Origin: Gemmatimonas phototrophica
Lineage (GTDB): Bacteria > Gemmatimonadota > Gemmatimonadetes > Gemmatimonadales > Gemmatimonadaceae
DNA length: 64,000 bases
Direction of reading: 5' to 3'
Assembly (NCBI GenBank): GCA_945869195.1
Contig: CAMBNV010000007.1
Location: 1 to 64,000 of the forward strand
Shown: one piece after another, positions 39,276-44,180 of the stretch
Layout: each line of letters opens with the position of its first letter
How positions within the stretch are numbered: the first letter of the stretch is position 1
Made by a program: the position numbers and the translations under genes
Notes under the pieces: model-generated
Database searches by the model: none
Told to the model about the DNA's origin: nothing
The model's input: the letters and a program-made list of their open reading frames with translations, nothing else

Positions 39276-41243
39276 TTATCTCCGCCCGGTTTCTTCCGAG
39301 GGTGTGGTCGTCGTGAACACCTGCGCCTTGACGAAGGTGCTGAGCAGGTCGGGATCGATGTGTCCGTCTTTCGCTTCCATGGTGAGGATATCGAGCGCGC
39401 GCTCGGCCGTCACGGCGCGCTTGTATGGCCGGTCGGCTGCGGTGAGCGCATCATAGATGTCCGCAATCGTCATGATGCGCGTCTGGACCGGGATATCCTG
39501 CTCGCCGACGCCGCGCGGATACCCGGAGCCGTCGAGTCGTTCGTGGTGTCCGAATGCGATCGTCGGAATGCCACTCAGTTCACGCGTCCACGGAATCTTC
39601 TCAAGAAAACGGTACGTGTGCGTGACGTGCGACTCGATCTCACGCCGCTCACGCGCGTCGAGGTTCCCTTTGTTGATCATGAGGAACTGGAGTTCGTTCT
39701 CCGCGAGGAGCGGCCGCTCGACGCCGTCAAAGTCCGTGAACCGCTGCTGGGCGATCTCCTCGAGCTGGCCAAAACTCCCCTCGGGAAGGATCGTCGGCTC
39801 ATTGGCACGAACGACCACATCCAGCCATCGCGACAGCGCATTGCGACGCTCGCGGCGTGTCCGGTCCAGTCGCTGGATCACCTTCGGATAGTCCGCCTGG
39901 CCATGCTGGAGGAGGTGCTCGGCGCGTTCGTGTTCGAACTCGAGGTCCGCCGATTGGAGCAACGCGTGAAAGCGGTGCTGCACGATCGCCAGGTCTGGAC
40001 CGTAGAGCTTCTTCTGTTTCACGAGGACCTGTTCGCGTACACCGACCTTCCCGAAGTCGTGCAGCAGGCCGGCGTAGCGGATCTCGCGGATCTGCTCGCG
40101 CGTGAAAGTCAGCCCCTTGTACCGCCCCTCTCCGGCGTGGGCGACGGCCTCCGCGAGATTCGTAGAGAACATCGCGACGCGGAGGGAGTGACCCGACGTG
40201 GCCGGGTCGCGCGCCTCGATGGCGGTAACCGACGCCGTGACGAACCCCTCGAAGAGTCGCTCGATGTCCTCGTAAAGTCGGCTATTCTCGATCGCCACCG
40301 CCGCATGCGCCGCGAGCGCCGACACGAGGTCGGCCGAGCGCTGGTCGAACGGTAGCACCTGCTGCTCGACGACGTCGTTCGAGGTCAGCGGCGCGTCGCC
40401 AACCCGCTTGCGGTTGATGAGTTGCAGGACCCCGATGAGCTCGTCGCGGTGCGACCGCATAGGGAGCACGAGCATCGACTTGGTGCGGTAGCCAAATGTG
40501 TCGTCGAACGAGCGGTTTTGGCGGTAGGAAACCTGGTCGGGCAGGAGGTAGACGTCGCCGATCATCAAGGGAGTCCCGGTGGCCGCCACGTAGCCTGCGA
40601 TGCTGGCGTGGTCGATGGGAATCGAGAACTCAGTAAATGGTATCGCGGGGAGCGTGATGTTCTGCGAGAGTTTGAACCGCAGTGTGCTCTGGGTTCCCTG
40701 ATCGTCCTGCTCGACGAGGTAGAGTGAGCCCGCGTCGGAGGACGAGAGTTGCAACGCCTGGCGCAGGATCAACTCGAGCAGCGTGTCGAGATTGCGTTCG
40801 GTGGAGAGCGCGACGCCGACGCGCGAGAGTTCCCGCAGGTCTGAGGCACTCGACTGTGCCAGCTGCGCTGCGCGGGAGGCTTCTATGCGCGCGCGGGCGT
40901 GCCGCAGGGCGCCCTGCAGGGCGGCGGTGCCGGCACCTGGACTCGCGTCCGTCGGCAGCCAGCTCGTCAGGGCGAGCGCGTGCATCAGGGCGGAAGGTTC
41001 TGGCTCGCCGGGCTCGCCCAGTCCGATGAGGGCAGCGAAGGGGGCGAGTGTACCGAGTAAATCCGGCCCGCCAGATCGTTCGACGAGCGCCCGGTCCACG
41101 AGGATCACGGTTGGGCGCTCAGGGTCGAGCATCTCCGACGTTGGCAGCAGCTCGACGCGGTGCACGTCGAACGCGTCGCCCGCTCGCAGCTGAGCAAGGG
41201 AGGCGATCGCGCGACCGACGGGAGCGAGGACGAGTGGCTTCAC
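39276..41243 (-). CDS. GAF and HD-GYP cyclic di-GMP phosphodiesterase-like protein
   Basis: The 655-residue cytoplasmic protein has an N-terminal region of about 130 residues of unknown fold, a GAF domain (about 140-325) and an HD-GYP domain (about 345-625). The catalytic residues are intact: His395-Asp396 in LLHDFGKVGV and HHERLDGSGYP at 566-576, so it should hydrolyse cyclic di-GMP. About 100 extra residues (roughly 424-527) sit between these motifs where ordinary HD-GYP domains have about 20. GTG 41243 (VKPLVLAPVG) is chosen because the upstream 77 codons look non-coding; no Shine-Dalgarno sequence is clear. Confidence 0.88.
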   Translation of the reverse strand: MKPLVLAPVGRAIASLAQLRAGDAFDVHRVELLPTSEMLDPERPTVILVDRALVERSGGPDLLGTLAPFAALIGLGEPGEPEPSALMHALALTSWLPTDASPGAGTAALQGALRHARARIEASRAAQLAQSSASDLRELSRVGVALSTERNLDTLLELILRQALQLSSSDAGSLYLVEQDDQGTQSTLRFKLSQNITLPAIPFTEFSIPIDHASIAGYVAATGTPLMIGDVYLLPDQVSYRQNRSFDDTFGYRTKSMLVLPMRSHRDELIGVLQLINRKRVGDAPLTSNDVVEQQVLPFDQRSADLVSALAAHAAVAIENSRLYEDIERLFEGFVTASVTAIEARDPATSGHSLRVAMFSTNLAEAVAHAGEGRYKGLTFTREQIREIRYAGLLHDFGKVGVREQVLVKQKKLYGPDLAIVQHRFHALLQSADLEFEHERAEHLLQHGQADYPKVIQRLDRTRRERRNALSRWLDVVVRANEPTILPEGSFGQLEEIAQQRFTDFDGVERPLLAENELQFLMINKGNLDARERREIESHVTHTYRFLEKIPWTRELSGIPTIAFGHHERLDGSGYPRGVGEQDIPVQTRIMTIADIYDALTAADRPYKRAVTAERALDILTMEAKDGHIDPDLLSTFVKAQVFTTTTPSEETGRR

Positions 41244-41346
41244 GGAATGGGTTGAAAGCGGACGGGAGAACCGCCGAAGTCCACGACTGGTGGACGCTGG
41301 CGATTCAAAGGTTACGGCCGGCGGGAGCTGCTCCGCTAGACGAGCC

Positions 41347-42057
41347 TTATCGGCTGCTTTCGAGCTTCGCCTTGGCCGCCTTCGCGTCGGCAAAGTTTGG
41401 GAATGCGCTGATTGCCTGACTGAGGAGTTCGATCGCCTGTGCACGATTACCAGAATCCTGAGCGCTGATCGCACGCGAGTAGAGCATCACAGCCTGAAAG
41501 GGCACCTTGCGCTGTTGCTCGGTGCGGGCTTCGCTGGACTGGCGTGCCACGGCGGCAATCGCGGGGAGCTTGAGGCCGGCGTTTGCTGCCGCACCGGCGC
41601 GCGTGACGAGATCGAGAAACTCTTCGGTCTTACCGTTCTGCGTCGAGGTCCACTCGATCCGGCCGGTCTCCGTGTCGATCGACTTGAGCGTCAGCACCAT
41701 CTTGCCTGAGCGGTCGGTGATGAACGAGCCCGTCACGAGGTGCTTGGCGCCGAGCAACTTGCCGAGCTGCGCCGCGGTCGCCGCCTCCACGCGGCCATCA
41801 CGGCCGAGATTCTGCTCGTCGAGGAGCTTCTGGATGTTCTCGCGCTCGACCAGGCGGATACCAGGGTTTTGGGCGAGCTCATTGATGAGCAGGTCCGCGA
41901 TGCCCTTCGACAGCGGGGCGAGTTCGATGTTGCTCGCGCCGATCGCACTGTTCACAAACGGCAGCACAGCGATCGTCGGTCGCGTGTCCTCCTGTGCCAG
42001 CACGGGGAGAGCCACGAGCGCCAGTAGGGCGGTGACGCGAGCGATGGGATTGAACAT
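41347..42057 (-). CDS. CsgG/LpoB-like exported protein with TPR-like tail
   Basis: This protein of about 236 residues has a signal peptide (TALLALVALPVLAQ) and a CsgG-like domain: RPTIAVLPFVN, PLSKGIADLLINELAQNPGIRLVEREN, IQKLLDEQNLG and GKLLGAKHLVTGSF. The C-terminal 50 residues look like one TPR hairpin (AVMLYSRAISAQDSGNRAQAIELLSQAISAFPN). Such proteins act in the periplasm or outer membrane, for example as penicillin-binding protein activators or secretion subunits. AAGGAAG before ATG 42057 is a good Shine-Dalgarno sequence. The upstream gene ends only 18 bases away, so it may share the hydrolase transcript. Confidence 0.8.
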   Translation of the reverse strand: MFNPIARVTALLALVALPVLAQEDTRPTIAVLPFVNSAIGASNIELAPLSKGIADLLINELAQNPGIRLVERENIQKLLDEQNLGRDGRVEAATAAQLGKLLGAKHLVTGSFITDRSGKMVLTLKSIDTETGRIEWTSTQNGKTEEFLDLVTRAGAAANAGLKLPAIAAVARQSSEARTEQQRKVPFQAVMLYSRAISAQDSGNRAQAIELLSQAISAFPNFADAKAAKAKLESSR

Positions 42058-42075
42058 CAATCTTCCTTGAGAGGG

Positions 42076-42951
42076 TCAGAGAGTCAGCGATAGTCCTTCT
42101 GCGGCGGCGACCACCTGAAGCGTCGCTCCGCGTGCCTTCACGAGCGCCAAGCATGCTGCGAGTTGGAGGTCCAGCTGATCATCGGTGCGGCGCGGTTCGT
42201 GGTGAAAGAGCACCAGCGTTCCGACCTCCGCTTCCAGCGCCAGCTCGACGGCGTCGTGAAACGTCGAGTGCCCCCATCCACGATGCTGTTCGTATTCGTC
42301 CGTCGTATACGTCGCATCATGGATCAGGACCTGCGCTCCACGAAGGAACTCCACCATCTGTGCTCTCCAGCCTGGGGGCGATGCATAACGCGAGTGTTCC
42401 GTCAACTCATTGTCCGACACGTAAACCAGACCGCCGCTCGGTTTCCCGGGTTCGGTGAACCGATATCCCAGTGCTCCGCCAGGATGTTGCACAGCGAATG
42501 CCGTCACGTCATAGCCCGTCCCCTCGGTCCTGGCTCCCTCGACCAGATCGCGGAAGTCGATCGTCGCGTCGAGCTCTTCGAACGTCACCGGGAATACGAC
42601 CGGCGACATCTGATCTCGCAGCACCTGATCGACGCCCCGCTCGAGCGACTGCGATCCCCAGATCTGGAAGTGATTCCCGCGTCCAAAGATGGGTGCGAAG
42701 AATGGAATGCCTTGGATATGGTCCCAATGGGCGTGCGTCAGGAAAATGTCTCCCCTGATCGGCGCCCCATTGGCTCGCGCTAACAGATCCCGCCCAAGGT
42801 CACGGATTCCCGTCCCTGCGTCGAGGATGATCAGCCATCCGTCGTCGGTCCGTACCTCCGTGCACGGTGTATTCCCTCCATAGCGGACCGTCTCAGGCCC
42901 CGGCGTCGGAATCGATCCTCGCGTCCCCCAAAAGCGGACACGTAAACTCAT
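42076..42951 (-). CDS. Metallo-beta-lactamase-fold hydrolase
   Basis: The 291-residue enzyme shows the metal site HAHWDH in IFLTHAHWDHIQGIPF, the N-terminal FWGTRGSIPTPG, LDAGTGIRDLG, IHDATYT and the late LVLFHHEP. This subgroup resembles phosphodiesterase-type members, but sequence does not settle the substrate. GGGAG lies 5 bases before the ATG. A CRP-type palindrome lies 74-89 bases upstream of the start, between this gene and the Crp/Fnr gene, so control by that regulator is plausible. Confidence 0.88.
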   Translation of the reverse strand: MSLRVRFWGTRGSIPTPGPETVRYGGNTPCTEVRTDDGWLIILDAGTGIRDLGRDLLARANGAPIRGDIFLTHAHWDHIQGIPFFAPIFGRGNHFQIWGSQSLERGVDQVLRDQMSPVVFPVTFEELDATIDFRDLVEGARTEGTGYDVTAFAVQHPGGALGYRFTEPGKPSGGLVYVSDNELTEHSRYASPPGWRAQMVEFLRGAQVLIHDATYTTDEYEQHRGWGHSTFHDAVELALEAEVGTLVLFHHEPRRTDDQLDLQLAACLALVKARGATLQVVAAAEGLSLTL

Positions 42952-43024
42952 GCACGCTCCCGGTTCACACCGAAGGATCGCACGCCGTCGACCGGATCAC
43001 CAAGGAGAGGGGTCACGGGAAATA

Positions 43025-43040
43025 CGTGATTCTGGTCACG
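43025..43040. promoter_or_regulatory. CRP-type operator palindrome
   Basis: CGTGA-N6-TCACG is a perfect palindrome that differs from the CRP consensus TGTGA-N6-TCACA only in the outermost bases. A second perfect palindrome, CGTCATGACG, follows at 43044-43053. Both lie in the 111 bases between the Crp/Fnr gene and the hydrolase gene. Confidence 0.6.
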
Positions 43041-43062
43041 ATGCGTCATGACGGTGTAGGGA

Positions 43063-43743
43063 TTAAATACGTTTCTGCGCGCGTTTGTCGAGCGCCGCGC
43101 GGTCGGTGATGCGAATGCGACGGTGGTCGGTCGCAATCCACCCGGCATCGACGAACTCCCCGATCGCGCGGGAGACTGTCTCACGGCTTGCCCCGATCAC
43201 ATTGGCAATCGTCTGGTGGGTGAGGGGCTTCTCGATTGACTCGCTCCCGCCCTCGGTCGCTGTGTCGAGAATCAGGCGGGCGATGCGTCCAGGAACATCG
43301 AGCAGGACCAGCGATCCGATCTTGTCGTCGGCGCGGCGCAGTCGCCCGGAGAGCTCGACCAGCAACGCCCACGCGACCGCTGGATTCTGCTCGACGCGCC
43401 GCCGAAAGTCCTCTCGCCGCAACACCAGGAGGGTCGAGTCCTCCATCGCAACGACGTGCGCCGAGCGCGGTTGATCGTCAATGAGGGAGAGTTCGCCGAA
43501 ATGGTCGCCGACACTGAGGATCTCGAGGATCACTTCGCGGCCATCCTCGGAGACGAGTACGACCTTCACTCGGCCCACTCGCACCACGAAGAGGGAGTCC
43601 CCCGGATCATCCTCGAAGAGGATCACGCTTCCCTTGGGGTAGCTTCGCTCGCGGACGAGCTGCGAGAAAGCCACCACCTCCGTCTGCTGGAGGGACCGGA
43701 AGAGCGGGACAGTCCCGAGGAAGTGGATGGTGGCGGGCGGCAT
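43063..43743 (-). CDS. Crp/Fnr family transcriptional regulator
   Basis: The 226-residue regulator has a cyclic-nucleotide-binding domain and a winged helix. The phosphate cassette (FGELSLIDDQPRSAHV) keeps the Glu, Arg and Ser that bind cAMP in CRP. The recognition helix reads SRETVSR (186-192), the same key Arg-Glu-Arg set as E. coli CRP, so it should read GTGA half-sites. No Cys cluster of the Fnr type is present. A GTGA-core palindrome lies 23 bases beyond its stop codon, before the hydrolase gene. There is no Shine-Dalgarno sequence before the ATG. Confidence 0.92.
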   Translation of the reverse strand: MPPATIHFLGTVPLFRSLQQTEVVAFSQLVRERSYPKGSVILFEDDPGDSLFVVRVGRVKVVLVSEDGREVILEILSVGDHFGELSLIDDQPRSAHVVAMEDSTLLVLRREDFRRRVEQNPAVAWALLVELSGRLRRADDKIGSLVLLDVPGRIARLILDTATEGGSESIEKPLTHQTIANVIGASRETVSRAIGEFVDAGWIATDHRRIRITDRAALDKRAQKRI

Positions 43744-43904
43744 TTATTGGGGCGGCGCGGCGGGAGAGGACTCTCGTCGCGAAGGTTACGGCGCGGGGGA
43801 GGGGCTGTCAAACGCCCAAATTCCCGTGCGGGAGTGGGTTCACCGTCGTCGGAGCCGTGAACTGAAGGGATACCCCTACCGCTGACGGCCACGGCCTTCC
43901 TTGC

Positions 43905-43934
43905 TTGCGTGGAAGTCCATACTTCGATTATTCT
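43905..43934 (+). promoter_or_regulatory. Putative promoter of the rpmE-prfA transcript
   Basis: TTGCGT (43905-43910), an 18-base spacer and TATTCT (43929-43934) fit a sigma-70 promoter. The leader of about 30 bases contains AGAGG 8 bases before the rpmE ATG, so this gene uses normal ribosome binding. Confidence 0.5.
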
Positions 43935-43970
43935 TCTAGGCTGTTAAAGCCCCAACCAGAGGCACCAAAA

Positions 43971-44180
43971 ATGAAGTCCGAAATCCATCCGACGTATGCG
44001 ACCGCGAACGTGGCCTGCGCCTGCGGAAACAAGTTCCAAACGCGCAGTACCCACTCGGAGATCCATACGGACATCTGCGCCGCTTGCCATCCGTTCTTCA
44101 CCGGCAAGCAGAAGCTCATCGACACCGCCGGTCGTGTTGAGCGCTTCCGCCAGAAGTACAACAAGGCGGCTGCCGTCTGA
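43971..44180 (+). CDS. rpmE: Ribosomal protein bL31, zinc-binding form
   Basis: The 69-residue protein begins [18 protein letters not shown] and has the four zinc cysteines as C-A-C-G and C-A-A-C, so it is the C+ form of bL31. The AGAGG sequence decides the start at 43971; the longer open frame from 43905 includes the promoter. It heads a transcript with prfA, prmC, ylbF, tmk and ctpA. Confidence 0.95.

Follow-up and report, generated by a model that had tools for sequence, protein, structure and literature searches.

A conserved, predicted CRP-type operator with a third half-site between a Crp/Fnr regulator gene and a metallo-beta-lactamase-fold hydrolase gene in Gemmatimonas phototrophica and its relatives: a possible cyclic-nucleotide feedback circuit

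A 64,000-nucleotide stretch of Gemmatimonas phototrophica DNA (GenBank assembly GCA_945869195.1, contig CAMBNV010000007.1, positions 1 to 64,000; hereafter the window) carries on its minus strand the gene of a Crp/Fnr-family regulator (P0001, 226 aa; 43063..43743), followed by the gene of a metallo-beta-lactamase (MBL)-fold hydrolase that is a candidate cyclic-nucleotide phosphodiesterase (P0002, 291 aa; 42076..42951). Between these genes, called crp and mbl below, lies a perfect palindrome, CGTGA-N6-TCACG, predicted to be a CRP-type operator. The preliminary description of this locus had placed the palindrome 74-89 bases upstream of the P0002 ATG, and the coordinates agree: the letters at 43025..43040 (no strand assigned; plus-strand reading) are CGTGATTCTGGTCACG, with the core GTGA-N6-TCAC at 43026-43039. 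Overlooked in that description was a third half-site, GTGA, at 43013..43016 on the minus strand, 9 nt past the TCAC of the palindrome as read on that strand. Beyond it, two minus-strand boxes are read as putative promoter elements, a -35-like TTGGTG at 42998..43003 (consensus among relatives, CCTTG) and a -10-like GATCCT at 42974..42979 (consensus among relatives, YAnYTT), the latter being weak in the G. phototrophica genome.

Taken alone, the palindrome is weak evidence. The window holds two copies of CGTGA-N6-TCACG against 0.23 expected (two or more were found in 2 of 100 shuffles), and the other copy, at position 868, lies beneath a 492-codon open frame. A scan of the source genome (2.33 Mb in 15 contigs, rated 98.22% complete) for CGTGA-N6-TCACG returned 20 perfect copies. 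On one strand or the other, open frames of 209 codons or longer cover 19 of them, where coverage was judged by open frames and not by proven genes. Because of these copies, a single palindrome says little by itself. The 27-bp triple element GTGA-N6-TCAC-N9-GTGA, formed by the palindrome core and the third half-site, occurs once in the same genome, at the crp-mbl gap.

Relatives were compared using 61 genomes searched with both proteins (17 of the genus, including the source genome, 20 of other genera of the family and 24 of the order). The crp and mbl genes are adjacent and in the same order in 51 of these genomes, and 28 genera hold the pair. When the gaps were anchored on their best match to GTGA-N6-TCAC-N9-GTGA, the perfect core was present in 41 of the 51 pair genomes (21 of 28 genera) and the perfect 12-letter triple in 38 (20 of 28 genera), all of which are among the 41 with a perfect core. 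By comparison, 300 dinucleotide-preserving shuffles of the 51 gaps produced at most two palindromes and one triple. A recognizable site, meaning a perfect core or at most two mismatches in the 12 letters, was found in 44 of 51 pair genomes (22 of 28 genera), including one (G034) in which the palindrome is perfect and the third half-site absent. The N6 and N9 spacers are free to vary and lie near background in the 43 rows with no more than two mismatches. Across all 61 genomes the triple element matched 66 times, 38 of these at the crp-mbl locus, whereas the reversed control pattern matched three times. In 20 of the 51 pair genomes the TGA that ends the regulator gene forms part of the left GTGA (e.g., at loci L033, L067 and L075), an overlap of coding sequence and operator. 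Conservation of the element at this one place is far beyond chance, which bears out the earlier proposal of a CRP-type site between regulator and hydrolase, and the element is predicted with high confidence to function as an operator.

Loci held out from this comparison were obtained from a hydrolase-alignment scan of named genomes, using the best 80 of at least 529 confirmed relatives. A full CRP ortholog was present in the fetched flank of 20 of these best 80 MBL loci, 17 of which are labelled as Gemmatimonadota groups, with the others labelled 'bacterium' (L161), Chloroflexi (L164) and Deltaproteobacteria (L182), the last two presumably being misnamed bins. After three loci identical to genomes already counted were dropped (L154 = G029, L161 = G038 and L166 = G044), the 17 held-out loci contained 12 perfect triples and 14 perfect palindromes, with one further site carrying one mismatch. 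The third GTGA thus accompanies a perfect palindrome in 12 of 14 held-out loci, as it does in 38 of 41 pair genomes.

Two further blocks are found at a fixed distance past the palindrome, at columns 34-38 (CCTTG) and 60-65 (YAnYTT), and these columns played no part in row selection. For the column statistics, the eight of 51 rows with more than two mismatches in the 12 letters (G021, G024, G027, G031, G032, G034, G055 and G056) were left out, and the first genome of each genus among the remaining 43 gave a one-per-genus set of 21. In this set, columns 36, 38, 64 and 65 carry 1.48, 1.20, 0.99 and 0.96 bits, respectively, against a median of 0.19 outside the twelve letters, and columns 60-65 all lie at 0.73-0.99 bits save column 62. 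If the blocks are a -35 and a -10 box separated by 18 nt, the transcript would start near column 72, which brings the palindrome to about -65.5 and the third GTGA to about -42.5, a placement that hinges on the -10-like box being right, the start itself being read from the columns. The third GTGA would then be the left half of a possible second site, the right half of which merges with the -35-like box. In CRP class II promoters, a site centred near -41.5 overlaps the -35 box, and this is the classic place for activation. The weak boxes of the putative G. phototrophica promoter would look like those expected of an activator-dependent promoter, which is no proof of one.

The regulator P0001 consists of a cNMP_binding domain (PF00027, 96.8 bits, cut-off 27.5) and an HTH_Crp_2 domain (PF13545, 72.8 bits, cut-off 27), which places it in the Crp/Fnr family, and scores 102.3 bits with the NCBIfam CRP equivalog NF008732, under its cut-off of 266. 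It is the only PF13545 protein detected in the genome, by a search that was positive in 14 of 14 control genomes. Since no second match was detected there, a CRP-type site is hardly that of another protein, and a different Crp-type binder was ruled out on this ground; P0001 is likely to be the protein that binds the element. Residues were compared between 51 P0001 orthologs, some of them partial, and E. coli CRP (sequence identical to 1g6n). Of the two protein alignments, A1 took in 28 of 51 orthologs and A2 took in 27, the latter together with E. coli CRP. The recognition-helix residues that read GTGA, R180, E181 and R185, are unchanged in all 51 P0001 orthologs. In this respect the preliminary description, which had assigned P0001 the RETVSR helix of E. 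coli CRP, was right about the contacts and one letter off in the motif, as E. coli reads RETVGR. It had also stated that the cAMP pocket residues are kept, which applies to the phosphate/ribose pocket: G71, E72, R82 and S83 are retained wherever covered (49-50 of 51; E72 in 49, R82 and S83 in 50, the remainder being gaps). It does not apply to the adenine contacts T127 and S128, replaced in all 50 covering orthologs. Among solved chains searched with phmmer, the best full-length bacterial regulator was M. tuberculosis CRP (Rv3676; 3d0s, 3i54) at ~131 bits, outscored by a multi-domain protein, 9ya0, across its cNMP domains. P0001 has the same domains as M. tuberculosis CRP but carries Ala-Asp in the helix touching adenine, where the latter has Thr-Asn.

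The hydrolase P0002 scores 72.9 bits with Lactamase_B_2 (PF12706), against a cut-off of 27, and its HxHxDH motif, H156, D180, H211, H228-S229 and H251 are invariant in an alignment of 28 of the 51 sequences. It thereby combines PF12706 above cut-off, HxHxDH and the metal-site Asp, features expected of the PF12706 group of atypical class-II phosphodiesterases. A structural model built on A1 (the 28-sequence alignment; mean pLDDT 87) matched the folds of E. coli ZipD/RNase Z (2cbn, Z 26.2), YhfI (Z 25.7), 4gcw (Z 25.1) and yeast PDE1 (Z 22.4). Foldseek matched the model to Apyc1 (7u2r, 7u2s) with E ~1e-10; Apyc1 proteins are MBL-fold anti-Pycsar enzymes that cleave cyclic mononucleotides, and P0002 shares their fold, but just 15-18% identity. 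Overall, P0002 fits the broad atypical class-II group and is a candidate phosphodiesterase. No match to the class III CpdA model NF008359 was found in the genome, in a search that matched 8 of 14 control genomes, one of them over the cut-off.

A possible source of the ligand lies elsewhere in the genome, where the one PF00211 match (85.3 bits, cut-off 21.9) is a class III cyclase with FHA and GAF domains at C1:35973-37517. Orthologs of this cyclase (E <=1e-40) were found in 53 of the 61 genomes, comprising all 51 with the crp-mbl pair and two of the ten without it. These two are G007, which is 77% complete and in which a match to the CsgG-like protein encoded downstream of mbl spans only residues 151-235, taken as a contig end, and G047, which has a crp fragment only. 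The eight genomes without a cyclase ortholog are also without the pair, one of them (G023) retaining crp alone. A looser PF00211 search was positive in 55 of 61 genomes, again including all 51 pair genomes. Visual reading of 19 of the 53 orthologs showed, at the positions of the substrate pair, Lys within the LDKF motif and, ahead of GD, Thr in 18 and Ser in one; a twentieth fetched locus (L142, G030) was left out as a paralog. Lys with Thr or Ser at these positions is the pattern of adenylate cyclases. On the basis of PF00211 and this Lys/Thr-Asp pair, the protein is classed as a class III adenylate cyclase. In G047, which is 99% complete and keeps the cyclase without an mbl ortholog, the crp fragment (G047:C12:32969-33220) matches residues 6-89, possibly reflecting decay of the circuit.

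From these comparisons we infer binding, the ligand, activation as opposed to repression, the transcript start, the operon and the enzyme activity. Ligand-bound P0001 would control, and probably activate, the operon of a class-II-like phosphodiesterase. The FHA-GAF class III cyclase would make a cyclic nucleotide, most likely cAMP, and loaded P0001 would occupy the palindrome (~-65) and the adjoining site (~-42) that overlaps the -35 box, recruiting RNA polymerase in the way known from class II or tandem CRP promoters. The promoter so controlled would serve an operon encoding the MBL hydrolase, the CsgG-like protein and a protein with GAF and HD-GYP domains. By hydrolysing the cyclic nucleotide, the MBL enzyme would provide negative feedback, and c-di-GMP would be lowered by the HD-GYP protein. 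The preliminary description had raised such a feedback unit for the case that the hydrolase acts on a cyclic nucleotide, and the idea gains support from the co-inheritance of the cyclase and from the placement of P0002 by PF12706. Feedback through a cyclic-nucleotide phosphodiesterase, with activation by P0001, is the reading we favor, and we hold it with modest confidence, at somewhat better than even chances.

A number of observations weigh against this reading. Absence of the site from relatives with both genes, set beforehand in the preliminary description as grounds for giving up the site, was found in seven of 51 pair genomes (G021, G024, G027, G031, G032, G055 and G056) and in two of the 17 held-out loci (L157 and L226); most relatives, 44 of the 51, keep a recognizable site and withstand this test. 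In four of the seven (G031, G032, G055 and G056; loci L066, L080, L083 and L084), the gap is only 2-16 nt, and crp and mbl may be co-transcribed there without an operator. The near-invariance of the 12 letters in the aligned rows is partly by construction, as rows were picked by their match to the element, and the fair measures are 38 of 51 and 41 of 51. The -10-like box of this genome is poor, and a stringent sigma-70 scan of 42900-44000 gave no match. The MBL family is not tied to a CRP, because at 60 of the best 80 loci, drawn from many phyla, the fetched flanks lack a full CRP ortholog (59 without a CRP-profile match and L210 with a partial one only; some contigs are short). P0002 scores 43.6 with the cyclic nucleotide-degrading phosphodiesterase model NF041851, far under the cut-off of 400, its closest sequence and fold matches include RNase Z, and seven PF00149 metallophosphoesterase matches in the genome make another cAMP phosphodiesterase possible. 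The Fisher p value for co-inheritance of cyclase and pair, 1.5e-8, overstates independence, as the losses are confined to a small number of lineages (one genus accounts for three of the genomes), the direction being clear; under the looser search, a PF00211 domain also occurs in four of the ten pairless genomes (G007, G019, G026 and G047). Finally, the adenine contact T127 is Ala in 46 orthologs and Val in four (one gap), and S128 is Asp in 50 (one gap). With both residues replaced in every covering ortholog, it would be unsafe to suppose that P0001 binds cAMP as E. coli CRP does. The Ala(Val)-Asp pair is, across the aligned sequences, a fixed feature of this regulator family; its Asp could take the adenine amino group or pair with guanine, and the altered base-sensing pair may shift ligand preference.

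Four other explanations of the locus were considered. That the palindrome is a chance match draws on the 20 perfect genome copies, 19 under open frames, but the conservation seen at the crp-mbl gap (41 of 51 genomes, 14 of 17 held-out loci) refutes it and leaves it with a negligible probability. A structured RNA or a terminator between co-transcribed genes is also a very improbable account of the conserved element. The palindrome is able to form a 5-bp RNA hairpin and both genes lie on the same strand; against this, the folding energy of the gap is like that of shuffled sequences (z -0.32) and no terminator-like site was found in a scan, and on these two grounds the hairpin or terminator was rejected. 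The third GTGA, moreover, has no partner in a simple hairpin, and in 41 of 51 genomes the paired letters themselves are conserved, with no covariation.

The remaining two accept a true P0001 operator and are harder to set aside. In one, which we regard as unlikely, P0001 would act on the mbl operon as a repressor or as an on-off switch. A site at about -42 would overlap the -35 box, and a dimer bound upstream would fill the place of the polymerase alpha C-terminal domain, which would suit repression; the third half-site adjoins the -35-like box, the sign is not readable from sequence, and two site centres just 23 bp apart are not the arrangement best known for synergy. On the other hand, a site near -42 stands where class II activators act, the weak -10 and -35 boxes suit an activator-dependent promoter, and in the case described by Kim in 2009 CRP reportedly acts positively on the gene of a cAMP phosphodiesterase. 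The other, also unlikely though slightly less so, makes mbl an ordinary regulon member without feedback, its enzyme acting on an RNA end, a phosphodiester metabolite or a linear dinucleotide in place of a cyclic nucleotide. Here the low NF041851 score and the many best-80 loci without a full CRP ortholog count in its favor, as do the highest-scoring NCBIfam model, RNase Z (TIGR02651, 90.2 bits), and the fold lists, headed by RNase Z or an E. coli homolog. However, all RNase Z models score far under their cut-offs (292.95 for TIGR02651), for which reason an RNase Z identity of P0002 was dismissed; another RNase-Z-like paralog, called without an RNase Z model, is already present at C1:246712-247557; and cyclase co-inheritance is hard to explain with an unrelated substrate.

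In support of the operon assumed in the favored activation and feedback reading, mbl is followed in the window, after a gap of 15 nt, by the gene of a CsgG/LpoB-like protein (41347..42060, minus strand; PF03783, 64.4 bits), and the two are likely co-transcribed. Next comes the gene of a protein with GAF and HD-GYP-type domains (39276..41246, minus strand; PF01590, PF13487), whose open frame extends to 41474, leaving its true start uncertain, and whose HD and HHExxDGxGYP motifs are intact (HDFGKVG and HHERLDGSGYP). Among 20 loci that we chose from the 51, the CsgG-like gene lies downstream of mbl in all 20 and the GAF-HD-GYP gene follows on the same strand within the fetched stretch in 18. No CsgG-like match (E 1e-10) was found in six of 51 pair genomes (G018, G021, G027, G033, G049 and G058), and the best one is on another contig in G024, G031 and G032. 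Close relatives of the HD-GYP protein (E <=1e-80) occur in 36 of 61 genomes. A crp deletion is reported to raise c-di-GMP in Klebsiella (PMC5025149). If the genes are co-transcribed, a c-di-GMP phosphodiesterase would come under the CRP-type switch as well, a possible link from cAMP to c-di-GMP.

Control of a phosphodiesterase gene by a CRP-type regulator has precedents. In Vibrio vulnificus, cpdA expression is reportedly positively regulated by cAMP-CRP, as described by Kim and colleagues in 2009, and in Pseudomonas aeruginosa, Vfr is said to control cpdA, in work by Fuchs from 2010 on Vfr and CpdA. As in these systems, a CRP-type regulator here would control the gene of an enzyme that presumably removes its ligand. 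In contrast to them, the regulator adjoins its target, its operator counts three half-sites, and Ala or Val and Asp stand in the receptor for Thr127 and Ser128; moreover, CpdA has the calcineurin fold (class III), whereas P0002 has the MBL fold. P0002 also resembles RNase Z/ELAC proteins in fold (2cbn, 4gcw) and in its HDAT...HST motifs, but differs from them in falling under all their cut-offs and in its signalling gene context. Another parallel is Rv1339 of M. tuberculosis, a cyclic nucleotide phosphodiesterase that a 2022 study (PMC9293780) assigned to the atypical class-II enzymes of family PF12706 and modelled using YhfI as a template. P0002 shares PF12706, the MBL fold and the metal-site Asp with Rv1339, and YhfI is among its best fold matches; unlike the Rv1339 group it falls far under the NF041851 cut-off, and the passages of that study consulted here make no mention of an adjacent CRP operator.

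The circuit itself is not reported in the literature searched, a body from which most subscription journals fall outside coverage. A cAMP phosphodiesterase gene under CRP control is already known; apparently new, as far as that literature shows, are the class of the enzyme, its adjacency to the regulator, an operator with three half-sites in fixed geometry, the fixed Ala-Asp pair and the bacterial group. Cyclic-nucleotide signalling also looks little studied in Gemmatimonadota. More speculatively, and tentatively at best, Gemmatimonadota may possess a self-contained module comprising an FHA-GAF cyclase, an Ala-Asp CRP that reads another ligand (e.g., cGMP) or cAMP in a new manner, an MBL-fold phosphodiesterase as off-switch, a three-half-site operator partly made from the crp stop codon in 20 of 51 genomes and, often, an HD-GYP protein. 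If this module is true, one signal would turn down both a cyclic mononucleotide and c-di-GMP. The locus offers a complete testable circuit of cyclase, receptor, operator and candidate phosphodiesterase, with an exact DNA element for a probe or reporter. It also provides a natural series of receptors with a changed base-sensing pair and a genetic reason to assay a widespread MBL branch (at least 529 relatives) for cyclic-nucleotide hydrolysis.

Among the MBL relatives, loci L172-L181, L183-L225 and L227-L233 (Verrucomicrobia, Deltaproteobacteria, Massilia, Nitrospirae and others) showed no full CRP ortholog in their fetched flanks. Upstream of crp, a scan of up to 260 nt at 51 loci found a perfect GTGA-N6-TCAC core only in G024, G030 and G002, and simple crp autoregulation was set aside as such a core is almost never found there. 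In G002, as in G004, crp is a fragment, so that the scan covered other sequence, and the G002 match is the intergenic site itself; those in G024 (L032) and G030 (L021) lie upstream of crp and may reflect autoregulation in these genomes. The 7-kb cyclase locus contains one perfect core, ~2.7 kb beyond the end of the cyclase gene. Away from the crp-mbl locus, the triple element matched 28 times in the 61 genomes, four of these in G030, compared with three matches of the reversed control, and some of these sites may be further targets of the regulator.

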